Source: Paramacrobiotus metropolitanus
Lineage: Eukaryota > Tardigrada > Eutardigrada > Parachela > Macrobiotidae
Assembly (NCBI RefSeq): GCF_019649055.1
Contig: NW_026570277.1
Location: forward strand, 558,001-622,000
DNA length: 64,000 nucleotides
Direction: 5' to 3'
The notes under the pieces: generated by a model
Told to the model about the DNA's origin: nothing
Database searches by the model: none
The model's input: only the letters and a program-made list of their open reading frames with translations
Shown: positions 1-14,222 of the stretch, piece after piece
Layout: each line of letters starts with the position of its first letter
Numbering within the stretch: the stretch's first letter is position 1
Program-made: the position numbers and the translations under genes

Positions 1-2148
1 GAAAGCAACTTTGAGAAGGTTTTATCGTTTTTACGTATATCTCGGAAACATCGGATGTCCCGCATCCAGCTGGATGCGATGCTGAAGTTTTTTGGTCAGA
101 TATCCGGACAGGAATTTCCCGACAATCTTTATAAGTTAGACAAGATCTTGCAACCACACCTGCTACCAGCCGAAAAGCATTTTTATTGTCCTGCTCATGG
201 AAATTATATTGGAGAAGATTCTTCTTTGATCGAGCCATTGTCCTGTACAAGCGCTGATTGCGAGTCGACTCGCAAAACGAAAAAAGAGCTGGAGGATATC
301 GGTGGCGTTTTCTACGTGTTCCCCATGTTGGAAAGCATAACAAGATATCTGAGCCTTCAGAAAAATAGAAGTGAAGTTTTCTCAAGGAAGCCGCAGGACA
401 CGCGCATGTTGGACGTTCAAGATGGAAAGCGATACAAAGAGCTACTTGTTGGGGCCGCCGATTTAACAATTACGTTTCATATGGATTCTGGAAACGTCTT
501 CGGGATTGGCGGCAGTGAAAACGGCTGCGTGACAATTTTCGACTATCTGATTAATGAACTTCCGCCAAGAAAGCGGTACCGTCGGCCATTTTTGTATGCC
601 ATTGCAGTGGGAAAGATCCAGCCGAGTTCGCAGATTTTGCTTCAATTATTTACGACTGAGTGCAAGCGCCTTTGTGTGTCGACACACAATACTTTTAGAA
701 TTATCCCTGCATTGTTTATTGCTGATGCCGTTGCAAGGATGGATGCTATGCTCCACGTATCATTCTTAGCGGAGTACGGCTGCACTTACTGCCTGCATCC
801 TGGTGAAATTGTAGCTGGGGTCCGTGTGTATCCTTGCGGTGTGGGTGGAGCATTTATACTGAAGACTAAATCAGTGTATTTGGAATCTTCGAAGGATGCA
901 GTACGTGACGGACACCCTGTTACGGGCTGCAACGGACCTTCCCAAATACTGCGGTTAACGTCGATCGATCCCTCTATGTCATGTCCACCCGATGTACTTC
1001 ACGCAATATGCCTGGGACAAATGAAGAAAATTCTACAGTACTGGACGAAAGATAGCATGAAGTCTTTGGCAGCATATGCTGCAATGTCAGACGAAAGGAA
1101 AAAAGTGTTAAACAATGCTCGCCTTGTGGAGGTCGACCTCCAAATTTCAAGAATTAAGTTTCCATCTGAATTTTCCCGCTCCATTCCACCTCTTTCAGCA
1201 AGCGGATACTACCACGGTACTGAATATCTCAATCTGCTGCTGTACGGCGCATTTTACGTCTTCGATGGCCAAGTGCCTCATGTCCTATACGAAAATTTAA
1301 TGGATCTTGTAATGGCTGTGCACCTTTTGTTAACGGATCACCAACTGTATCACGGAAATTTGCAAGAACATTCCGAATTGGTGCGGAAACTTGTGGAGAA
1401 GTTTTCTGGGCAATTCGAAAAACTGTATGGAAAACGCAAAATGCTGTACAATACGCACCAGTTAAATCATTTTGCACAAGCGCTGTGTAACTGGGGTCCA
1501 GCCTACCAATGGTCAACTTTCTATGCCGAGGATTTCTTAGGCCAGCTGAACCGTTCGGTCCATGGAAGCACGGATGTTTGCTCACAAATTATTCGAAACT
1601 ATCAGCACATCGAGTTGTTGCGACGATATGAAGATAACATTTCCAAAGCGGTGTTGAGCCATCATGGAGCAAAATATCACTTTGCGGGTCGACCCGCAGA
1701 AAAACCCCCGCTTTTATCAAAGGAAGAAGCGGCGATTTTGAACTTTCTTGCTGCAGATGAAGTGCCAGCAACTCTTCAGTTTTATAGCGCAGTTGTCAGA
1801 GATGACAATGTGATTTTTGAGTGCCGAGGATATGGAAAAAAAATCCGTAGGATCAACAGTTGGATTCAAACTGTTGCCCATGAAGTGGCACAGCTCCTTG
1901 TGTTTTTTTACGACGCGGATGCCCATATTTTCGGAGCGGTTGTTGACATCATCCCGAGTGTTGCATTCAAAAAGTTTAAATTGCCTAGCGGAGAAAGCCC
2001 AGAATTTTTTAGGAAATGTTCGCGACGCCGAGAATGTGTGGCAATTAATGTCAGTTCGATATTTCGCCATGCTGTTGTCATTATTGATCCAGTGATAGGA
2101 TTGCCTACGTTTGCTGTGTTTATTCCTAATAATCAGTACATTCTGTAA
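1..2148 (+). CDS. CACTA/EnSpm-type (TNP2-like) transposase, 5' end outside window
   Basis: Likely a DNA transposase of the CACTA/EnSpm (TNP2-like) group, which cuts and re-joins transposon ends in the nucleus. The frame is open from base 1, so the ATG at 55 (697 aa) is probably internal and the true start lies off the left edge. Family-like signatures: a Cys/His cluster near the start (FYCPAHG, then CTSADCE); LPPRKRYRRPFLYAIAVG near residue 165; DVLHAICLGQMKKILQYW near residue 310, matching the family's D-x-x-H-x-x-x-L-G-x-x-K-x-L block; FPSEFSRS; and YNTHQLNHF near residue 475. I cannot assign the catalytic acids with certainty. The CDS carries four of the 18-base hairpins and a fifth lies 5 bases after the stop. 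No frameshift is visible, so it may be functional. Assignment is from remembered family motifs, not a search. Confidence 0.7.
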   Translation, partial: ESNFEKVLSFLRISRKHRMSRIQLDAMLKFFGQISGQEFPDNLYKLDKILQPHLLPAEKHFYCPAHGNYIGEDSSLIEPLSCTSADCESTRKTKKELEDIGGVFYVFPMLESITRYLSLQKNRSEVFSRKPQDTRMLDVQDGKRYKELLVGAADLTITFHMDSGNVFGIGGSENGCVTIFDYLINELPPRKRYRRPFLYAIAVGKIQPSSQILLQLFTTECKRLCVSTHNTFRIIPALFIADAVARMDAMLHVSFLAEYGCTYCLHPGEIVAGVRVYPCGVGGAFILKTKSVYLESSKDAVRDGHPVTGCNGPSQILRLTSIDPSMSCPPDVLHAICLGQMKKILQYWTKDSMKSLAAYAAMSDERKKVLNNARLVEVDLQISRIKFPSEFSRSIPPLSASGYYHGTEYLNLLLYGAFYVFDGQVPHVLYENLMDLVMAVHLLLTDHQLYHGNLQEHSELVRKLVEKFSGQFEKLYGKRKMLYNTHQLNHFAQALCNWGPAYQWSTFYAEDFLGQLNRSVHGSTDVCSQIIRNYQHIELLRRYEDNISKAVLSHHGAKYHFAGRPAEKPPLLSKEEAAILNFLAADEVPATLQFYSAVVRDDNVIFECRGYGKKIRRINSWIQTVAHEVAQLLVFFYDADAHIFGAVVDIIPSVAFKKFKLPSGESPEFFRKCSRRRECVAINVSSIFRHAVVIIDPVIGLPTFAVFIPNNQYIL
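258..275 (+). repeat. Covarying hairpin 1 (NNN = CGA)
   Basis: TTGCGAGTCGACTCGCAA, a perfect 18 bp palindrome inside the transposase CDS. Variable arms CGA/TCG pair; loop TCGA. Confidence 0.85.
672..689 (+). repeat. Covarying hairpin 2 (NNN = TGT)
   Basis: TTGTGTGTCGACACACAA, a perfect 18 bp palindrome in the transposase CDS. Arms TGT/ACA pair; loop TCGA. Same codon phase as hairpin 1. Confidence 0.85.
1126..1143 (+). repeat. Covarying hairpin 3 (NNN = GAG)
   Basis: GTGGAGGTCGACCTCCAA. The inner 16 bp are perfectly palindromic and the outermost pair is G/A. Arms GAG/CTC pair. The codon phase differs from hairpins 1 and 2, so the protein sequence does not explain the conservation. Confidence 0.85.
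1682..1699 (+). repeat. Covarying hairpin 4 (NNN = CGG)
   Basis: TTGCGGGTCGACCCGCAG. Arms CGG/CCG pair and the outermost pair is T-G, a wobble if read as sense RNA. It lies in the third codon phase within the transposase CDS. Confidence 0.85.
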
Positions 2149-2153
2149 CTGTA

Positions 2154-2171
2154 TTGCTTGTCGACAAGCAG
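2154..2171 (+). repeat. Covarying hairpin 5 (NNN = CTT), 3' UTR
   Basis: TTGCTTGTCGACAAGCAG, starting 5 bases after the transposase stop codon. Arms CTT/AAG pair; outermost T-G wobble. Confidence 0.85.
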
Positions 2172-2218
2172 AAATATCGTTTGTTATTCCTCAGTTGGTG
2201 CTGTTCACTCTTCGCAAT

Positions 2219-2224
2219 AATAAA
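2219..2224 (+). terminator. Candidate poly(A) signal of the transposase gene
   Basis: AATAAA about 70 bases after the transposase stop, with a second AATAAA near 2236. AATAAA is common in AT-rich DNA, so this is suggestive only. Confidence 0.4.
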
Positions 2225-2649
2225 TAATGAATGGAATAAATTTTCGCAAATTTTGTTCAGGTATTTGCCATTTCACCGGAGTTCGCCTGTAAATATATAC
2301 AGCTAAAAAGCAGCTTTTACGGTTTGACATCTTTTATTTAAAATTGTAATTAATTGACCAATCTGGTAATGCAAGGCCATTAATACTGTTTGTTTACGAA
2401 CGCCTTGGGGGTGGGACATCTGCATAAAGACCGTCGGTTACTTTGATCCTAAAGGAACCGAAAGGCCGTGCGCGCGGCCCGGCAATTGGACCGTTTCTTA
2501 AACGTATAAAATGCAGTATGATTCGTACATACGAATCCGTTTGTTCTCGTTCTTCACGCTAATGATATCTAACACCTGGAAACTTTCAGACGCAAAATAA
2601 ACCTTTCCTTTTCTTATTATTTTTTTGTAATTTAATCTTCCCGGCTGTT
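2225..2649. other. Intergenic region between transposase and lysine-rich protein genes
   Basis: No gene is visible. It contains a GC-rich patch near 2466-2485 and the candidate TATA box described separately. Confidence 0.4.
2505..2510 (+). promoter_or_regulatory. Candidate TATA box
   Basis: TATAAA in the context ACGTATAAAATGC, 140 bases upstream of the ATG at 2650 and just downstream of a GC-rich patch. Plausible promoter for the lysine-rich protein gene. Confidence 0.35.
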
Positions 2650-3224
2650 ATGGATTGTGCGGATTTCGTTGACAGTGGTTTGCGCGTCGACGCGCAGGAA
2701 ACCACCATATCGTCGGCATTGGCAACAGGTACCTTGACGCTTGCTGTTACGAGTGAAGTGATAAAATTTCGTTTATAGATTTTGTTGTGAAGCATGTTTG
2801 CAGGTTTTCTAATGTTTGACTACAACCTTTAGAGATCCGGCCTACTTCATCTAGCCCGCATGCTGATTCCGATTCAACTAACCAGCAGTCAACCCTTCCG
2901 CCGGAACCAACTGCAGATGCTGTAACCCTTCCGCCGGAACCAACTGCAGATGCTGTTAACCACGGGCAGCGTAAAACTTACGCTTGGCGTTTAAAGCCGG
3001 GCATGAGTATACACAATCCGCGTTCTCGCATTGTTCTTCCCGCCAGAGGGGTCGTTTATTCGGACGAAGAAGATGAGTCCGAGGTTGCAAAAAAAAAGGC
3101 GAAAGGCAACGATTTGCGTGTCGACACGCAGCAGACGGACAGCTCCAAAATTCCGGAAAAGAATGAAAAGGAAATTCGTAAATCTGCGCTCCCCAAAAAG
3201 CCGAAGAAGAAGGGATTCATGTGA
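2650..3224 (+). CDS. Small lysine-rich protein, two exons (hairpin-tagged)
   Basis: Exon 1 is 2650-2728 (ATG at 2650, donor CAG/GTACCT); exon 2 is 2833-3224 (acceptor CCTTTAG). The phase-1 junction joins in frame to give 156 aa. The protein has an acidic stretch (SDEEDESEV), several lysine clusters (AKKKAK, then KKPKKKGF at the C-terminus) that look like nuclear localisation signals, and an 11-residue tandem repeat TLPPEPTADAV. I do not recognise the family. Its place beside the transposase and its basic character would fit an accessory DNA-binding protein like plant TnpA, but that is inference from position. Each exon carries one hairpin, read in the same phase as L-R-V-D-A/T-Q. Confidence 0.6.
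2680..2697 (+). repeat. Covarying hairpin 6 (NNN = CGC)
   Basis: TTGCGCGTCGACGCGCAG in exon 1 of the lysine-rich gene. Arms CGC/GCG pair; outermost T-G wobble. Confidence 0.85.
2891..2956 (+). repeat. In-frame 33 bp tandem duplication
   Basis: Two identical adjacent 33 bp units (2891-2923 and 2924-2956) encode the duplicated TLPPEPTADAV segment of the lysine-rich protein. Confidence 0.9.
3114..3131 (+). repeat. Covarying hairpin 7 (NNN = CGT)
   Basis: TTGCGTGTCGACACGCAG in exon 2 of the lysine-rich gene. Arms CGT/ACG pair; outermost T-G wobble. Confidence 0.85.
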
Positions 3225-3289
3225 ATGGTTGAAATCATCGTTACGTGACTTTTGGGTCCTGTTATTAATACGTGAAATAGTTTCTTAAC

Positions 3290-4830
3290 TTTGCCGAATC
3301 AAAATTCATTAACGTTTGTTTGCCTAGAGGTTACTTGGTTAGGTTACCGGAGCTTTTCTGTTACTTTAGCTTCTTCCTCTCAATGTTATCGAGTTTACAT
3401 AATTACATTAAGTTACGCAGGGTTTCGTTTGTTGACGTTAGTCCTATGATTTCTTGATTCTGGTTACTGATGTTACGAAACTAAGGCCCATTAACAACGC
3501 TTGGTTACCTTTGGTTACCTTAAATACCGGATGAGTTTAAGTAACGGTAGTTACAATACAGCATTAGTGGCTTACAATACCTTCGGTTAATTGAATTACC
3601 GGTTTAGCTTTAGGTCATTTTTCAGCGTTCAGACTTTTTTAGGTTACGTTGGTGTAAATTAAATTACTTTGGTTACCTTAATTACCGATAAAGTTAGCTA
3701 ACGTTGCAATTGTAAGACTTCTTCAGGTAACACTTTGTTACGTTGAATCCCACTTGATGACCTTTGGTAACTCCTACTAACCGGCTAAGTTTCAGTAACG
3801 TCACAACGTTAAGACTTCTTGAGGTTGCACTGGTTTACCCTTAATCCCATTTGATGACCTTTGGTTACTTTAATGAAGTGACGTTACCACGTTAAGTCAA
3901 CTTTAGGTCATGTTGGTGTAGGTTAAATCGCCTTCGTTTACTTTAGTTACCGGTTGAGTTAAGTAACGTTGCCACCTTAAAAGTCCTCTTGGTTACATCG
4001 GTGTACGTTGTTTTCTGCATGGTAACCTTTCGTTACTTCAATTGCTGGATCAGTTAAGTAACGTTACCACGTTGAATCCCACTTGATGACCTTTACCGAT
4101 GTTGGTTACTTTACAAAGGGGTTGACTTTGAGTAACGTCACAACGTTACGACTTCTTGAGGTTGCACTGGTTTACCTCAAACCCCACTTATTGACCTTTG
4201 TTTTCCTTAAAATTATGATTAAGTTTCAGTAAAGTCACAACGTTACTAAAACTGTTATACTGATTTTGTGAAACTGTTTATACGTGACATATCTTGTGCT
4301 CAGTGTTATTTTGGTTATTTTGTTATATAATGTTACGTTACAGGATCTAAGGTCACACTTACGTACAATTGTTTCCGCTTGGTTTCGTCTGTATACTTAA
4401 GTTACTAGCTTATTTTAGGTAAAAATATTATAACAATACGACTTCTTTAAATTACGTTGGTATGCGCTAAATCCCTCTTTGTCACCTGTCGTTTCCTTCA
4501 TTACTAGTTCAGTTGAAGTTTAGGCTGTTTTGGTTGCACTAGCTTGCATTGAATTCCGTTTAGTGCCCTTTGGTTACCTAAATTACCGGTTGAGTTAAAA
4601 CAGCGTTACAACGTGAAGAATCCTTTAGGTTACATCGGTGCACGTCGAATTCCGCTTGGTGACCTTTGGTTACTTCAGTTGCTGATTGAGTTTAATAACG
4701 TTACCGCGTTAAGAATCCTCTTAATTACATCGGTGCACGTCAAATTCCGCTTGGTGACCTTAGGTTACTTTAATTACCGGTTCAGAAATTACGTTACAGC
4801 ATTAAGACTCTTTTAGGTTACGTTTAACTT
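3290..4830. repeat. GGTTAC-rich degenerate tandem repeat array
   Basis: About 1.5 kb built from shuffled short words such as GGTTACCTT, AATTACCGG, AACGTTACAACGTTAAGAC and TGACCTTTGGTTAC. At the right end the unit is clearer: the word CGCTTGGTGACCTT recurs near 4656 and 4749, a period of roughly 95 bp. No gene is supported. CACTA-type transposons carry subterminal arrays of short transposase-binding repeats, so this could be the subterminal region of the element encoding the transposase; no terminus was located. Confidence 0.75.
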
Positions 4831-4834
4831 TATG

Positions 4835-5490
4835 TGGACCTAACGATGCGCCATAGAACAGCTCCGGCGGTACTGCTTCAAACGAAGCTCTATAGTTCTA
4901 TACCAAATGAAAACGGCAATCAGGTCTTATTGTTTTTTACCATAATTTTATCAGGGTCTATATTATAGCGAATCCGTAATTCTACATCTGTGTTTAGGAA
5001 ATTATCTGAAAAAGCTAAAATTAGCTTTGGCGACAGTTCATAATACCAGTTACCCTTACGGCTATACACACCGGAACGGCTTAGGCGTAAAACACAGGAC
5101 AATAAAAATTCAGTCCAGTCTTCATGCTTAGTCAATTTAAAACTGTTCCACGGTCGAAAATTTAAAAAAACCCCTTTTATTAATTAGTTTATTTCGTTTC
5201 CCGTTTACGCTTTATCCACGCTTCAGTTTCTGCTCGCAAATTGTCAGCAGGTTTGACTTGGTCCATCGTCCGGTAACACTGACGATTAAATGGATCCGAC
5301 TTTACGGATAACAAGTGCCGAGCGATGGTGGTGATGGCGAGCTTGTGATGACAGAATCTTCAATCAGTAATCGCCGTACAAATTTCCGCCTAAAATACCA
5401 GCTTAATTAGCATTTGTCGGGTCTAATTTTAGCGTTATCAAAATAACCAGCCTGACGACAAATCCGCACAGCCGGATCGATCATTATCAC
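4835..5490. other. No recognised feature
   Basis: Short open frames only, with no motif I recognise. It separates the repeat array from the transporter pseudogene. Confidence 0.3.
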
Positions 5491-5529
5491 CATTTATTTT
5501 CCTTGTAATAAGATGAAATATAAACTGAA

Positions 5530-6411
5530 ATCCTTAAACAAACTGTAAATTCCTCTAACCTGATTGCCAAACACTCGAAAAGCCGCCGCCCCCGACACCT
5601 CCTTGGTGCAGAACCAGAAGGGCAGACAGGCGCGCCTGAAGTCCCAGAATGAAGATCTGCGACATGGCCGCAACGGTCTGCCCGACGAAAGTAACCACGT
5701 AGCACTTGGAGACAGCGCTGAAGCACTTAATTGCGCTGCCGATGAAATTCCCTAATGATCCGATTAAAGCCACCACCCGCAAGCCTTTTCTATCCAGCCG
5801 CCACGTCGCCGGAAACACCAGCGGAATATACGTCAGCATGTAAATCATGGACAGCCAGTCCACCGACAGCGGCGAGACGCCGTAGTAGAATACCATCTTA
5901 TCGCTAATAATCCCGTATTCAATACACTGAAAGGCATTGCTCGTGGCATACAGACAGAAAGCATAATCAAACGCCGGGGTGTGGTGCGGTTCAGCGGCGG
6001 TTAAGATTCGTCCACAATCGGAATATCCCCGTCGGTGGTCTCGCGTTCCTCCTTGCCGCAGATCTGTCGGACAATACGGGCGAACAAGTCGGAGAAATTG
6101 AAGGCGAAAGCGTTGGATTCGCGGCGCTGCAGACGCTTATTGGGTACATCGACCGGACTGCCCTCGGCGCGCGGCTCCATCTTTTGGTAACTACGGCTGG
6201 GTCCTGTCGGTGATCCGACGGAGGGTGAGGAATATTCTCGTAATTCAGCATTGTCGTTATTAAGTCCATTAGGCCTGATATTACCCGTCGTGCCAGCGGC
6301 GGTAAATACGCTGTCGTCGGCTGGCCTAGACGTGCTAATCACAATTCTTGGCGATTTCGCTGTTTGCAGCGGGACTTTGGCCTTGGCTTCTTCGTCGCTG
6401 TCAAATGCCAT
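5530..6411 (-). pseudogene. FLVCR-family (MFS) transporter, N-terminal half, frameshifted
   Basis: FLVCR-type proteins are 12-TM major facilitator transporters of haem or choline in animal membranes. On the minus strand a Ser/Pro-rich N-terminus begins at 6411 (MAFDSDEEAKAKVP) and stops at 6001. In another frame follow YATSNAFQ and EYGIISDKMVFYYGVS, then SVDWLSMIYMLTYIPLVFPA and KGLRVVALIGSLGNFIGSAI, matching TM1-TM3 of the family. Near 5625 the frame shifts again; the continuation (TKEVSG, then FRVFGNQ) lies in a third frame, and homology ends by about 5535. At least two frame changes and loss of the C-terminal half argue for a pseudogene. An intron near 6000 could explain the first change but not the second. 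Confidence 0.7.
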
Positions 6412-7600
6412 TCTGTCACATTGACAATCAGGAATGTGGGCCCGGACACCGCAGCTGTGGAAAACGAGGAGATAACCTGCAAATTTTGCAACAATGTACG
6501 CTCCGCTTTGTCCTAGTTAACACGTTGGACAATATGTGCAGAAACACGGGCACTTGTCAACCGTGGGAAAATGCAAACGTTAATAATTCTACTTAGATTT
6601 TGTAGAATATTTTGGCATCGACCCGTATTTACGAAATTCCTCAAGACTGGCAATAATGGGTCTCACAAGACAACACGTCAGCGAGAACACGACGCAAAAA
6701 ATACAAACGAAGAGAACCGCTAACTTGCTTGCATAGGAAGTTCTCTCAAAGACAGTCTGGCAAAAATGATAAATACTACCAGAAAAGAATCAATCGGAAC
6801 TCGGTCTTATTCTTTCAAGTCAAGAAACTAGGAAATATCGACCGATTCAGCAGCTCGTTAGGCACTGCTACAAGTATGAAATTCACTCAGAAAACTGGAC
6901 GCCATTTCACTTACATAATTACATTAACCCACGAACCGAAACTCAACTTATAATTCTTTGCAGACGGAGAAACGTTTATCTAAAAAGAACACAATCAGAA
7001 GTAACAAAAAAGCGAATTTCATCCAGACTAAATTAGAAACAAGACAACCGCATACCAGTTGAATTATGCCTTGATACAGAAACAATAATTATGACATAAA
7101 TTGATGCGTCTGAACAGTAGCGCCTTATAGTGATTTTATAGTTTCTGCCGTTTCAAAGACTTCCGGTGCTTAAAGTAGTCGTAACCGCCCGGTTCGGCAG
7201 CGTAATGCAGTATTGTTTGCCACCCGCCATGGGGCGAGCTTTTAATGTGGCGCACGTGCTGTTGCGTCAGCGGCCATATTGGTTTTCAGTTTTGACTGCA
7301 ACGCCGCAAACGAAGATCTTCAGTGATGTGGAGATAGCTTTTCAGAGCTCTTGATTTCGTTTCATTGTATGGTTCACCTAGATTTCCTTTATGTTTAAAT
7401 TACATATTTCAGAATGAATTTCTAACGGTTATCATTGCGTCTGTCGACTTATGTTTTGTATACGTCAAACTTATAGTGAGTATGCCAAAATGTGTTAGGA
7501 ATGTGATGACACGGTCGAAACCAGTTTCCGGGGCTCGAAGATCTGAATGCAGTGCATGGTTTAATTTAACTTTGTCTTGGGATTATACTAAAAATCAATA
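6412..7600. other. No recognised feature
   Basis: About 1.2 kb with only short open frames and no motifs I recognise. Confidence 0.3.
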
Positions 7601-7605
7601 TGCTT

Positions 7606-7740
7606 ATTTGCAGCTAAACCCTTTTTGAAGAACGTGATGATCGAGTAACGGCATTTGTGGAGCCCTTCGTGATTTTGCTTATTCTTATTGTTGATGCAGT
7701 CGTGACTCGTCGGAGTGTGGCATGTAAGAAAATCACCGTG
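7606..7740 (+). pseudogene. Second partial copy of SERCA exon(s)
   Basis: The sequence from the splice-like TTATTTGCAG through about 7728 repeats the two SERCA-like exons found at 8066 and 8435, but fused: the first bases of the upstream exon (CTAAACCC) run straight into the body of the second (TTTTTGAAGAACG). The exon body, intron and start of the next exon are missing between two CCCTT words, as expected from a microhomology deletion. The frame is broken (GAACGTGATGATCGAGTAA). Confidence 0.65.
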
Positions 7741-8065
7741 TTTTTCGTTGAGAAACTCTGGTATTTTATTCTCTGTCGTACGTTTATTCAGTTGTTAGTT
7801 TTCTTCAAATTTTTATTTATTAAATGAGAGAAAGTTTCACGAGATTGTGGCGTTTTCATCGCTCACCTCGTCAGCTGTATGAATGCGCAGATTGGTCACT
7901 ATTCGCGGATAGCGCACGTCTGTTTGACGTGTAGAAAAAATAATCCGATTTTATTACTGTAATCGTTTTATTGTACGTTTTCGAATTTCCACGGTTTCGA
8001 CAGCTTTCGGGTTTGTTTGCACAGGACATCGTTAGCCGTTGTTTATGGTTTATTTTTATTTGCAG

Positions 8066-10405
8066 CTAAACCCTTATGGGCCCTTATTTTGGAACAATTC
8101 GACGATTTATTAGTCGAGATTCTCTTGCTCACGGCTATCATTTCCTTTGTAAGTACCCTGATTAATATTGCTATTTAAATTTGACAAAATTGTTCTAACT
8201 GTTCTGCAACCGAATTCGATATTAATACAGCGAGAGATTTTCTCGTTGAGTTTTTATTTGATTAATGACGGTTGATTCAGTCGGTTTCCGCATGGCAGAT
8301 GGTGATACATGATTGATATATGCTGCCATGTGATGTATTTCATTTGATTTCCGCTATTGTGAGTTTTTATATAATTTTCATTAGAATTGTTGCTTTGGAA
8401 TCGCAATTCAATTACATGATTCCTGTTTGTACAGGTTCTCGCCCTTTTTGAAGAACATGCTGAACGAGTAACGGCATTTGTGGAGGCCTTCGTGATTTTG
8501 CTTATTCTTATTGCTAATGCAGTCGTCGGAGTGTGACAGGTAAGAAAACCATTAGTATTTTGCCAAAAAATTCTTTTTCAATTTTTTACTGATTGGAAAT
8601 TAATGTTAATTTCGCAGTTCATTTTTGTTTCAATATTTTACGGGTTTTCAGTATTGTGAGATTAATGAGTTTGTCTCATTGATAATTTGGCGGTGCTACA
8701 TTCGAAAATTAGGACATTCCAGGCCGATTTTCAATCGTCGCCTTGAACCTTGATTTTTGTTCCACGGCAGTCAAAGTTGCGCGCATCAGCACGATATGGG
8801 GTGTTGTTCCGATTTAGAACGCGGGATCATAGGAGGAATGCGCGAGTCTGAGAATGTTTAATGAGAAAGAAGAAACGCTATTAATAAATTCAGGAGTGAT
8901 AAGTAATAGAATGTCAGAATGTGTGTGTACAGAGTGCTGTAGTACATAGCTTGTATGGTGTGCTGTTGCTGCTGCTGGTGTGTGTTATAAATGACATTTT
9001 CCTCTTCAGGAGTGATGTAACGCCTTGTCTAAACAAGTAGTTTGTCGCGAAATGCAGCAGAGAGTCTGCGCTCGGCTTGGAGCTGTGAGAACTTGCATGG
9101 AAGAATGCAGCGAGGGTTCGTTACGGCGCTGTGCCTGTAGAGAAAGGCATAATTATGCGGTGATCGCTCAAGAAGGCGAAAATATGCGGCTAGAAGTAAA
9201 GGAGTTAGCAGCGTAGCATCCGTGTACGTAGGTTTAGGTATTTTTTTCGACGAAGAGTTGAGGAGAACGAGAGACTTCTTAATAAACTCTTTAATGTTTA
9301 TAGAAACTAAAAATTTTTTGAAGCGGTGAATAATTGCGTGTACATGAAGGCATTTTCAAGGTGGAACGCTGTGTGTGAGGATGTAGAATTTCGCGTTTGC
9401 TGCGTTGGAAGAGCCCGACGTTACGTTATTTGCGATTAACTTGTTTTTTATGGCTCTAAGAAATAAATACTCGGAATCAGTATTTCGCAAATTTTGAATG
9501 CTGGCCTGTGTGAAAGAATTTCCCATTCTTTTTATTTTATGTTTTCAACGCAGATACATACTTGTTATACATCGCTTACAGGTACATGCCTTACGTCGCA
9601 GTTTTGTTGATATTCTACTTTTTGTAACTTAATAAATTTGGCGGGGAATTTTTAACTGGGTGACAAAGTAGCTGGCATGAGAAAACAGCAAAAATGAATA
9701 ATGGTCTTGATGTGATCCGAACAATTAGCTACAGTAGCTGTCTGTTAATTGAGCACTATTAACGTGCGAGTATTTTTAGATGTTAATATAATTAGTTGTG
9801 CGATAAAGCATTAGTTTGTGCTGATCGCAAAATGCCTTCATGCTTTTTGCCGGTTGTACATGGGCTGACATTGACAATGCGCGCGCTACGAGCCGAGATC
9901 ATGTGCAGGCGATGTTATGCAACAATGTTTGCTTGTGGGAACGTTTAGAATTTCAAGATTGATAATTTCAAGGCGGTTTTATGGTATCACATAGGGTAAA
10001 TTTCAGTTCTAACCACCTGATACAGTTGTTGCACAAATGGTTTCAACATTTACATTAGCGTAAAATAGGGTGGTATTTTGAAAATGTCTGTGCGATTATC
10101 GTAGGAAGGGAACGCCGAAAGCGCCATTGAACCGCTGAAGGTGTATGAGCCAGAAACTGCCAATCATCTGATCAGATAAGCACGGTATCCAAAGAATACG
10201 AACCAACCAAATTGTACCGGGTGATTTGTTTGAAATCAGTGGTAAGTATGGCGATTTTTGTGAATTTGAATTCTATAATACTGATTTTAATTTGGCTGTG
10301 TTCTAAACAGTTATCGTGAGTTATATGTTGATTTTATTTTGGCTGTATTTTCAACAGTTGGTGACAAGATTCCCGCGGACATTTGTCTCACGAAAATTAT
10401 ATTGA
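8066..10405 (+). pseudogene. SERCA-type Ca2+-ATPase pseudogene, four exon remnants
   Basis: SERCA pumps Ca2+ into the endoplasmic reticulum; this matches its M1-M2 and early actuator region. Exon remnants: 8066-8148 (KPLWALILEQFDDLLVEI), 8435-8539 ([17 protein letters not shown], then [14 protein letters not shown]), 10105-10241 (NAESAIEPLKVYEPE, later RIRTNQIVPGDLFEIS) and 10358-10405 (VGDKIPADICLTKI). Introns with good donors and acceptors remain, so this is a genomic copy, not a retrocopy. Lesions: the Trp codon of the GVWQ motif is TGA at 8534-8536, a frameshift gives a stop at 10177-10179, and the pump's phosphorylation, nucleotide-binding and most membrane segments are absent. The intron between exons 2 and 3 is about 1.6 kb. 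Confidence 0.8.
8941..10080. other. Large intron of the SERCA pseudogene, no clear gene
   Basis: Contains a short CTG-rich run near 8966-8980 and a 63-codon open frame (9025-9216) with no recognisable domain. Nothing else supported. Confidence 0.3.
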
Positions 10406-10407
10406 CG

Positions 10408-12302
10408 ATGGCAGATCTCAAGAATATCAAAAGAAACGCGGAGGTATGTTCTATTTTACCTAGCTATTTTTTAGAATAGCTGTTTTAATTAGCACAAGTT
10501 ATTTACACATGTAAATGAATTAAATACAATTTGTGATTTCTCGCACTCGTGGGATAAACTGTCGATTGGCCTTTTGCAGATCTGAGTTCTCTGATCTAGA
10601 TTTATTTCAGTATAAAATGCTTAAACGTGCTTTCTATCTGATGTTCATGTCTTACAGCGTGCCCGCGACTCGTTTAAATGTATGGTACATCAGACGCCTG
10701 ACGGAGACGACTACAACATAACGCCGTGCTGTGGAAACATTATGTGCACGGCATGCTTTGCGATGCTAGTGCAGAGTGAATTAGATAAAAACAAGGACAA
10801 GAAAGCGGGAGAGAAGTTATTCCAACATCTGTGCCCCAGCTGTCGCAGGTACGTTAGTTTTATTAATTTAAGTTTAGTCCTATACTTCTCATTTTCTTGA
10901 TTCTTGCGTGTATGATTGTTTTCTTTTTTACGCGCAGCCCGAACTGGAAGGCGCTACGCAATCTCGGCTGGATAAAAGGAGCAGCTGATGACAGCGGCAA
11001 AACAGTGGACAGTATCCAGGCCGCAATCGCCGTTGGCGGTCGACCGCCATGCCTGGATGCTGATGCCCAAACCGTTCTTCCGATTACTGCACAGGCTCCT
11101 CAGTCGCACATGCTATTTTGTCGACACGTGTCTGAATTGGTGTTCCCTCTTTTGGACGAGCGCGCTGTCCAAAACGGATACATATTGCTGACGGGAGTTG
11201 AACTACGACTACTTTACCTGCTGGACCTTGCCGCCGCGGATTACGCTTTCTATAAGCAAGTTCACTGCAGTATAAATTTAAAATCATAATTTTAGCAGGC
11301 TTTTAATTATTTGTTTTTTGTAGATCGGAGAAGAATTACTTGGAAGCAACTGGAACACAGTATTACAAATTGTTCTAGAGCAATGAAGCGACGATATTCG
11401 AGTACGGCAATCTGGCAAGGCTGATGGAGAAGCTCGGGACACCCTTAGAAGTCGTGAAGTCTGCGGCTCTTCCAGAATTCCTTTTTCCTCCATCGGTTTT
11501 GAAGAATAATAGAGATTCAACTGAATTTGTTATGCAGTGGGTTGGACCTTTTGCTGTTGAAGGAAAAACGGAGGTAGTATTTGGATGTCAACATCCATAA
11601 GCAAATTACTACCTCGCTGTACTTTTTTGTTACAGTATGTTACGATGTTATTCGAACGTTTTGGGTTGGCGTCCCTCCGCAAGCCAATTGCATTCAATAA
11701 ACCGCACGCTACAAAGGGCTCGTGCAAGCCTAAATGCGCGAAATGTCGGGTGAACGGCGCCATCAGAAACGAAGAAGAACATGCTTATAAAATGTGTGTA
11801 ATCAATTATTATACCTATTTAAAAAATATTTTAGTGCTTATTGCTATTTATTATTCCAGGGAAGCGGATTTGCCGTACCGGATCATGTGCGCTTTGTGCG
11901 GTATTGATATCGAGTGGAATGAGATGCAGTATCATGTCCGAACAGTACATAAGGTGGGTGTACTGTGCCCCGATAAAATCGACTTTATTTACGGTGTATA
12001 AAATGTAGGTCAACCTACAGTGTTTTATTTTCTAGGACGCCACCTGGAATGTGTGCCGATGCTGGGCTCCTCTCGCTGGCCAGTATGCGCCGAGCACGCC
12101 GCACGGAGTGAGCTGTCCGCTGCGAACATTTCCCCTGATGACTGGCAAGCGCGGGGAACGATACCGGCACAAACCGTTCCCGCCGACCATAGAGAAACGC
12201 CCCGAGCCGACATTTCCGGACAAAAAAGAAACTGTTCGCGTGAATCTCGGGCTTGTTGTCCGAGAAGGTCGCGCTTGGTGGCAACTAACGTGGCCTTTAT
12301 GA
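10408..12302 (+). CDS. RING and C2H2 zinc-finger protein, seven exons (hairpin-tagged)
   Basis: Exons 10408-10443, 10658-10848, 10938-11259, 11379-11573, 11636-11793, 11860-11953 and 12036-12302 join in frame to 420 aa. N-terminal RING-like cluster: C20, then TPCCGNIMCTACF and CPSC near residues 71-74, spacing typical of ubiquitin-ligase RINGs though not a perfect C3HC4. C-terminal part: KPKCAKC, then C-x2-C-x11-H-x4-H (CALCGIDIEWNEMQYHVRTV plus H), then a basic proline-rich tail. Function beyond zinc binding is not known to me. Exon 1 lies directly after the last SERCA remnant. It carries four hairpins: one in exon 3, one in each of introns 4 and 6, one just after the stop. That links it to the transposase and lysine-rich genes. 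Weak points: the short first exon and the weak donor GTTCAC after 11259. Confidence 0.6.
11033..11050 (+). repeat. Covarying hairpin 8 (NNN = GCG)
   Basis: TTGGCGGTCGACCGCCAT in exon 3 of the RING gene. The inner 16 bp are a perfect palindrome; arms GCG/CGC pair. Confidence 0.85.
11571..11613 (+). repeat. Hairpin spanning the 5' splice site of RING-gene intron 4
   Basis: Outer arms GAGGTAGTA (11571-11579) and TACTACCTC (11605-11613) are exact reverse complements and enclose hairpin 9 (TTGGATG-TCAA-CATCCAT). The left outer arm is the end of exon 4 plus the intron donor (GAG/GTAGTA). Confidence 0.75.
11581..11598 (+). repeat. Covarying hairpin 9 (NNN = GAT), loop TCAA
   Basis: TTGGATGTCAACATCCAT in intron 4 of the RING gene. 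Arms GAT/ATC pair. The centre is TCAA, which breaks the DNA palindrome but would lie in the loop of a hairpin. Confidence 0.8.
12003..12020 (+). repeat. Covarying hairpin 10 (NNN = TAG), loop TCAA
   Basis: ATGTAGGTCAACCTACAG in intron 6 of the RING gene, 14 bases before the acceptor TTTTCTAG. Arms TAG/CTA pair; loop TCAA. Confidence 0.8.
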
Positions 12303-12303
12303 A

Positions 12304-12321
12304 GTGTCGGTCGACCGACAG
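12304..12321 (+). repeat. Covarying hairpin 11 (NNN = TCG), 3' UTR
   Basis: GTGTCGGTCGACCGACAG, beginning one base after the RING gene stop (12300-12302). The inner 16 bp are palindromic; arms TCG/CGA pair. Confidence 0.85.
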
Positions 12322-12699
12322 ATTGCTGTTCTTGCCATTACTTTGCTTTTTCGTTGTATTTCTGTTTTTGTTTGGCAAAAAAACTGTTCTTGACGGGCGA
12401 TTTTGTTTGATCTTGTTTTTTTTAATGGGAAACGATGGATTAACATGTTATTTTTGATTGGGAAACCACGGATTAACAGTTTATGTAAATTTTGATTTGG
12501 CGTATAACGTGGATACAGATTTCATGTTGATATAAATCACTGTTCTATTCTGCTGCCCAAATCTCGCCGTTAATATAGTTTATGATGAACTGTTTAACAC
12601 CTGAGGCATTTTGATGTAGTTTCGAAAATACTTTTTGACGAGGGGGTGAGTCTGCAGCCTCGTAATTTTCATGAGTAGCTTAGCCGCAATAAGACATCG

Positions 12700-14021: not shown

Positions 14022-14222
14022 AATTGTTTAATTTAGATTTAATTGTATATTTTAGTTATAATTTTCTTACAGAAGTACTACTTATGAAAACCTATATAGG
14101 TTTTCTATATATAATTTTCTTACAGAATTACTACTTATGAAAACCTATATAGGTTTTCATAAGTAGTAATTCTGTAAGAAAATTATAACTAAAATATACA
14201 ATTAAATTTAAATTAAACAATT
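14022..14222. repeat. Large AT-rich palindrome
   Basis: A near-perfect palindrome centred on CCTATATAGG near 14148. The inner arms (about 14110-14147 and 14149-14186) include ACAGAATTACTACTTATGAA and its complement. The outer left part (14041-14106) is a second copy of the left arm, so the whole reads arm, partial arm, inverted arm. MITE-like fold-back; no target duplication identified. Confidence 0.8.

Follow-up and report, generated by a model that had tools for sequence, protein, structure and literature searches.

An evenly spaced array of palindromes with matching but variable arms in a probably CACTA-related transposon of Paramacrobiotus metropolitanus

A 64,000-nucleotide stretch of the genome of the tardigrade Paramacrobiotus metropolitanus (the window, C57:558001-622000) holds part of a DNA transposon of about 17.2 kb (C57:553451-570644), which begins left of the window and ends at window position 12644. 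Within this one element lie 23 palindromes, mostly of the 16-letter, dyad-symmetric form TG-NNN-GTCRAC-N'N'N'-CA. They form a regular array, are conserved at the DNA level, combine exact symmetry with free arms, and recur in a second transposase clade; an element of the hAT family carries similar palindromes. On balance we favour reading them as sites in duplex DNA that are needed in cis and would be bound by a dimer, of the element or of the host. DNA-binding sites normally conserve their sequence; here symmetry is kept while the arm sequence is free, and this holds in exons, in introns, in copies without genes and in two transposon superfamilies. An explanation would need either a DNA-binding protein that reads structure or some new means by which large transposons remain mobile, and a protein that selects self-complementarity over sequence would, if real, amount to a new mode of DNA recognition. 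The differences between arms allow many individual sites to be traced from copy to copy, which makes the question directly testable.

The palindrome array and its constraint

Census. The pattern TGNNNGTCRACNNNCA matches 11 times in the whole window (Table 1), with no other match, and NNN is complementary in 11/11. An earlier note, made from the sequence alone, had described these eleven sites, with different stems and exactly complementary right arms, and had judged them not to be due to chance. Both points hold: in 60 simulations of the window by a first-order Markov model, the mean and the maximum number of paired motifs were both 0. The note had also confined the sites to three genes, and here the array proved larger. 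The stretch directly left of the window (L005, C57:548001-558000) adds 11 intact palindromes, of which nine end in TG..CA and two in TT..AA, and one broken site (L005:8816, second pair G-T), 12 more in all. The total of 23, like the spacing test below, takes in the broken site; it leaves out a weak one with 5-bp arms (TAAGGTTGACCTTA) at element index 761.

Spacing. With the element ends counted and a site-free gap (Table 1) left out, the intervals between sites have a mean of 403 bp (standard deviation 83, minimum 257, maximum 556). The coefficient of variation is 0.205, and equally even placements occurred in 0 of 100,000 random trials.

Symmetry. Seventeen different six-base arms occur among the 23 sites, with NNN in Watson-Crick pairing in 23/23 and the outer two pairs in 22/23; at the next position beyond the arms such pairing is found in only 3/23. 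The element contains GTCGAC 23 times, and all three flanking positions are paired in 20 of these as against a shuffled mean of 1.6; the remaining three are not array sites. Elsewhere in the window none of the 11 GTCGAC is paired.

Long copies. The whole assembly (169.8 Mb in 533 contigs) was searched for relatives, and for the palindrome patterns the analysis covered the matches listed. The transposase exon (715 codons) is 93%, 91% and 79% identical in the copies on C19, C122 and C116, which with the window's element make up clade A. Clade B transposases (C105, C46, C214, C82) are 45-48% identical to the window's and those of clade C (C76, C11) 41%. The three long clade A copies were compared with the window's element at their sites and at the flanks of these. 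Mismatches number 4/288 in sites versus 162/1394 in flanks for C19, 6/288 versus 178/1397 for C122 and 4/192 versus 226/852 for C116, a divergence 6-13 times lower in the sites. This comparison leaves out the weak site and four right-hand sites, and used 18, 18 and 12 of the remaining 19 in C19, C122 and C116; seven sites are unaligned in C116, though palindromes with such arms occur there. Some arms change in compensated pairs, as the earlier note had thought they might between transposase copies: at site 1683, CGGG has become CAGG in C116 (TGCAGG/CCTGCA), and at site 259, GAG has become GGG between clades A and B. In the C122 copy the two end matches are separated by 37 kb (C122:96443-133718), perhaps through a large nested insertion or cargo. 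At C29:134384-134763 there is a left end with 100% identity over 380 bases to that of the window's element; exons of the companion gene adjoin it, and it is possibly a recent relative.

Short copies. Eighteen short copies, chosen since palindromes showed in them, match no element protein (18/18), and their longest stop-to-stop stretches are 79-200 codons. To be counted in them, a site needed a perfect arm and no more than 2 mismatches in total. The GGAT site varies by 2.2% as against 32% in its flanks (17 entries, one of which is a GCAT site of L043 with one change), and the GGCT site by 0.4% as against 28% (16 entries); L042 and L044 have no countable GGAT, and L044 and L052 no GGCT. Conservation is weaker for the other types, with 14/26 GTCG-type and 24/35 GCAT-type entries fully paired, and some of the imperfect ones represent a recurrent half-site. 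An intact TGTCGG stem is the site nearest the right end in 11/18 short copies (hand count) and is imperfect or absent in the rest. Because short copies that conserve the sites carry no element genes, the constraint acts on DNA, in cis; we infer that it serves transposition. In the stop-riddled copies L022 and L024 the palindromes have decayed, site 1127 being among the broken ones. The earlier note would have taken such uncompensated loss of pairing as telling against its model; the loss is there, and is also predicted by loss of selection.

Clade B. These elements carry a shorter version of the palindromes. In C105, both positions nearest GTCGAC are paired in 22/26 cases versus 6.1 when shuffled, and pairing by position outward from the core runs 24/26, 22/26 and 13/26. 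Each of the four sites in the transposase exon has a clade B counterpart at or close to the same codon: GGGTCGACCC at the place homologous to site 259; TGGGTCGACCCA near site 673, where the alignment is gapped; AGGTCGACCT at site 1127; and GGGTCGACCC at site 1683 in C105, C46 and C214, C82 being unaligned there. The commonest clade B form, GGAGTCGACTCC, has 74 genome matches versus 4 for the reversed control, among the matches listed.

A hAT element. At C54 (L054, L059), a hAT-family transposase gene carries six palindromes of the same kind, with arms TGCTGG, TTTGGG, TGTAGG, TGTAGG (TCAA loop), TAGGG and TGAAGG, two of them without the outer TG, spaced 321, 452, 526, 296 and 517 bp apart. Its Dimer_Tnp_hAT match scores 23.0 bits, above the cut-off of 21.4, and its DUF659 match 24.7 bits, under the cut-off of 34.7. 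A second hAT copy, on C120, is 82% identical over 905 bp (0.9 kb compared) and has the TGAAGG site unchanged. The C54 and C120 loci are absent among the matches listed for the transposase, companion and element-end searches, so the palindrome code is not private to one element. The earlier note had proposed that the sites tag transcripts of one mobile element or regulon; they do mark mobile elements, of more than one kind.

Single palindromes were treated as chance: TGGTTG at C21 and C27 (L060, L061), where 1.1 kb of each locus contains a single 20-bp TTTGGTTGTCGACAACCAAA palindrome with no other such site nearby, and likewise TGCCTG at C38 (L053). The L060 and L061 loci contain a two-copy coding gene, 93% identical, that looks Polinton-like by eye. 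Paired sites at C2, C3:1575336, C8, C11:1521930, C14, C22, C29:578544, C45 and C83:488809, among the matches listed, were left out.

Ends and superfamily of the element

The terminal inverted repeat CCCTCGTCA is found at both ends of the window's element and of the short copies L008, L009, L010, L040, L041, L042 and L050, while the right end reads CCCACGTCA in L007 and L047. The ends of the window's element are common to L009 and L010. Ten copies have both ends in hand, and in eight of them (the window's own and 7/9 short ones) a 3-bp target-site duplication is present; it is absent in L007 and L010. Genome searches with the two ends gave 38 and 32 matches, and those that can be paired lie mostly 2.0-3.0 kb apart.

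The element is probably a CACTA-related (TRC-like) DNA transposon. Its terminal inverted repeats have a CCC core, and its 3-bp target-site duplication falls within the 2-3 bp looked for in this superfamily. According to PMC1636069, a CCC core characterizes the terminal repeats of animal TRC/CACTA elements, and those of SmTRC1 and of Tribolium and Aedes TRCs begin CCC, as here; SmTRC1-type elements also share with ours a short target duplication and shortened copies. They differ in that animal TRC/CACTA elements have a 2-bp duplication, whereas the one here is of 3 bp, and the element is 17 kb long with extra genes and without a detectable Transposase_21 match. Membership is likely rather than proved, since the CCC-starting ends fit animal TRC/CACTA but no transposase hidden Markov model (HMM) matches. 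Pfam and NCBIfam gave no meaningful match for nine transposases (Transposase_21, 0/9), and the sole PF02992 match in the genome is at C117. A comparison of the transposase with a protein collection (the best 7999 candidates by shared words) found none at E 0.001 or better, and among the 50 pattern matches listed for viral contigs there was no relative. The AlphaFold model of the transposase (pLDDT 40.6) is too poor for fold comparison.

What the palindromes may do

In the reading that we favour, a putative homodimeric DNA-binding protein would occupy the array, and its occupancy would keep the length of the element compacted and synapsed for transposition or, alternatively, keep it open against silencing. 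A candidate for the binder is the product of the conserved companion gene of the element; a host factor exploited by several transposons is another. We favour duplex sites with a dimer because RNA is unlikely and because hairpin DNA fits clade A and the clade B sites with 4-bp stems, not the shortest clade B sites.

Known systems offer partial likenesses. TNPA of Spm recognizes subterminal repeats that are cis-determinants (PMC2613891), and VANC, which binds short motifs, brings about a loss of methylation along the whole of its transposable element (TE) (PMC5735166). The soybean CACTA element Tgmt* has internal cis sites that are able to form palindromes and are proposed to be bound by an element protein, and in this they resemble ours; they consist of one repeated stem motif, no more than 159 and 732 bp from the ends (PMC2613891). 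Unlike those, the sites here have arms that vary from one to the next, and they extend along most of the element, exons included. The single recurrent motif, bunched towards both ends, of CACTA subterminal regions is not what we found: there are 17 arms among 23 sites, spread out except for a gap of 7.9 kb. VANDAL elements likewise have short motifs bound by a TE-encoded protein, VANC, with motif and protein diverging between related TEs (PMC5735166, PMC10398659), but these motifs hardly vary in sequence and belong to tandem repeats in non-coding regions, unlike the free-arm palindromes here. In the available parts of these sources, free but matching arms are not described for Spm-type subterminal sites or VANC motifs, and among the literature matches listed no title describes such palindrome arrays.

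Several points weigh against the favoured reading. The gap leaves 7.9 kb of the element without any site. An additive dimer model does not predict arms that match and yet vary. Exon sites 3 and 4 sit on VDL and GRP peptides conserved among transposases, so conservation across clades may be partly coding. Clade C shows no clear array: C76 has 3 GTCGAC in 14 kb, C11 has 8 (1.7 expected), of which 2 are paired at both positions (0.4 shuffled), and a search of both for other k-mers gave no array. Clade C nevertheless has the companion gene, which accordingly does not imply an array, and a search of 6.2 kb at the C54 hAT locus gave no companion homologue. The C-terminal domain of the companion was considered as a BEN domain because of a likeness by eye, and this was rejected: it has no Pfam or PDB match, and the BEN model matches none of these loci. 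The short motifs that BEN domains recognize include palindromic and CpG-containing ones, but the sites named in the abstracts of PMC11472053, PMC10206803 and PMC7764960 have given sequences.

We also entertain, tentatively and as rather doubtful, a wider reading: that several unrelated DNA-transposon superfamilies of this animal share a genome-wide code of evenly spaced palindromes, whose symmetry, and not the arm sequence, would be read by a common factor that licenses or shields the whole length of the element.

The first rival to duplex sites is that a protein recognizes single-stranded or cruciform DNA hairpins, folded into a 6-bp stem with a TCRA/TYGA loop, much as integrases recognize attC sites as folded hairpins. 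This would account for arms that are free but paired and for the tolerance of the central two bases. Folded as DNA, five sites of clade A have energies of -2.8 to -5.1 kcal/mol. Among the four clade B sites folded, the two with 4-bp stems reach -2.0 and -2.4 kcal/mol, but the other two only -0.2, and pairing in C105 is strong for just the two positions beyond the core. We know of no single-stranded step for DDE cut-and-paste elements, and consider hairpin DNA unlikely.

Alternatively, template switching or the opening of hairpins might copy arm onto arm by mutation, while selection acts on the core only. It would explain arbitrary but matching arms, and compensated changes exist. It is, in our view, quite improbable, given that the GGAT and GGCT arms of the short copies are about as conserved as the core, that no variant there has changed in both arms, and that dead copies decay asymmetrically.

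The earlier note had proposed hairpins in sense transcripts. In favour of RNA, exons, introns and untranslated stretches all contain sites; RNA folding gives -3.7 to -7.4 kcal/mol for three clade A sites and -1.1 and -4.7 for two of clade B; and two of the few single changes (our L005:8816 and one C122 site) give an RNA-tolerable G-T at the second pair. The short copies, however, keep the sites without element genes, and the shortest clade B sites barely fold. The loop variant, said to be always on the sense strand, is found on both: the C122 copy has GTCAAC antisense to the transposase (L013:1483), and L005:7160 of the window's element reads GTTGAC in the minus-strand companion gene. An outer T-G wobble, as the note observed, is present (5/23 sites) but is not enriched, T standing opposite A/G in 8/23 versus about 9.7 predicted from the column make-up (14 T, 16 A/G), and no NNN pair of the 23 sites is G-U. 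Rfam gave 0 gathering-score matches in the window. RNA hairpins are therefore very hard to credit.

Chance or protein-coding constraint is refuted for the array as a whole: although GGGTCGACCC in C11 of clade C falls where the codons for GRP are conserved, and the peptides at exon sites 3 and 4 are conserved too, the spacing, the short-copy conservation, the pairing versus shuffled sequence, the simulations and the site-versus-flank counts all speak against it, as do sites in introns and gene-less copies and the three codon phases (0, 0, 1 and 2 for the four sites of exon 1-2148, hand count), and the note's claim that protein constraint cannot explain the sites is upheld in that protein coding alone does not account for the pairing.

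Genes, gap and surroundings

Table 1. Features of the element and its palindromes
Feature	Position	Strand	Remarks
Left terminal inverted repeat CCCTCGTCA	L005:5451-5459		matches right end inverted
Companion gene	L005:8650-5858	-	divergent from transposase gene; common to clades A, B and C
Transposase main exon	window 1..2148	+	gene starts upstream at L005:9611
Palindrome TGCGAG-TCGA-CTCGCA	259..274	.	transposase exon; unchanged in C19, C122, C116
Palindrome TGTGTG-TCGA-CACACA	673..688	.	transposase exon; unchanged in C122, C116; last base differs in C19
Palindrome TGGAGG-TCGA-CCTCCA	1127..1142	.	transposase exon; unchanged in 3 copies
Palindrome TGCGGG-TCGA-CCCGCA	1683..1698	.	transposase exon; unchanged in C19, C122; paired change in C116
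Palindrome TGCTTG-TCGA-CAAGCA	2155..2170	.	just 3' of transposase stop; unchanged in C19, C116; loop reads TTGA in C122
Gene 2	window 2650..3224	+	two exons by eye; small basic protein; homologues in C19, C122, C116
Palindrome TGCGCG-TCGA-CGCGCA	2681..2696	.	gene 2; unchanged in 3 copies
Palindrome TGCGTG-TCGA-CACGCA	3115..3130	.	gene 2; unchanged in 3/3 copies, flanks only 63-70% identical
Palindrome-free gap	window 3131..11033	.	7.9 kb inside element
Gene 3	window 10410..12302	+	multi-exon by eye; weakly RING-like zinc finger
Palindrome TGGCGG-TCGA-CCGCCA	11034..11049	.	gene 3; stem kept in matching part of C19 and in C116
Palindrome TGGATG-TCAA-CATCCA	11582..11597	.	gene 3 intron (by eye); stem kept with TCGA in C19, C116
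Palindrome TGTAGG-TCAA-CCTACA	12004..12019	.	gene 3 intron (by eye); C19 has TGCCGGTCAACCTGCA near the corresponding place, one pair broken
Palindrome TGTCGG-TCGA-CCGACA	12305..12320	.	right-most site of array
Right terminal inverted repeat CCCTCGTCA	window 12636..12644	-	from end comparison
3-bp target-site duplication GGT	window 12645..12647		left copy L005:5448-5450

In the companion gene of the window's element the last domain is out of frame relative to C19, C122 and C116, and this copy may be dead. Gene 2 includes a 33-bp tandem repeat (window 2891-2961) that codes PPEPTADAVTL. The best Pfam match of gene 3 scores 22 bits, under the cut-off of 50, and pieces of the gene are conserved in C116, C105 and C11.

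A search of the gap for other palindromes gave seven scattered ones of 10-12 bp. GGTTAC-rich degenerate repeats occupy window 3240-4850, including a 95-bp tandem unit at 4551-4779. The gap also holds a fragment of a major-facilitator transporter gene (window 5555-6136, minus strand; MFS_1, E 1.7e-5, below cut-off), which we take to resemble FLVCR. Of the 1531 bases around it (element positions 9479-11009), 32, 0 and 0 align to the compared stretches of C19, C122 and C116; since these positions barely align, the fragment is perhaps a captured host gene.

Beyond the element, 1.5 kb past its end, lies a perfect 60-bp palindrome (fold-back) at window 14119-14178, with one of 20 bp beside it at 14086.

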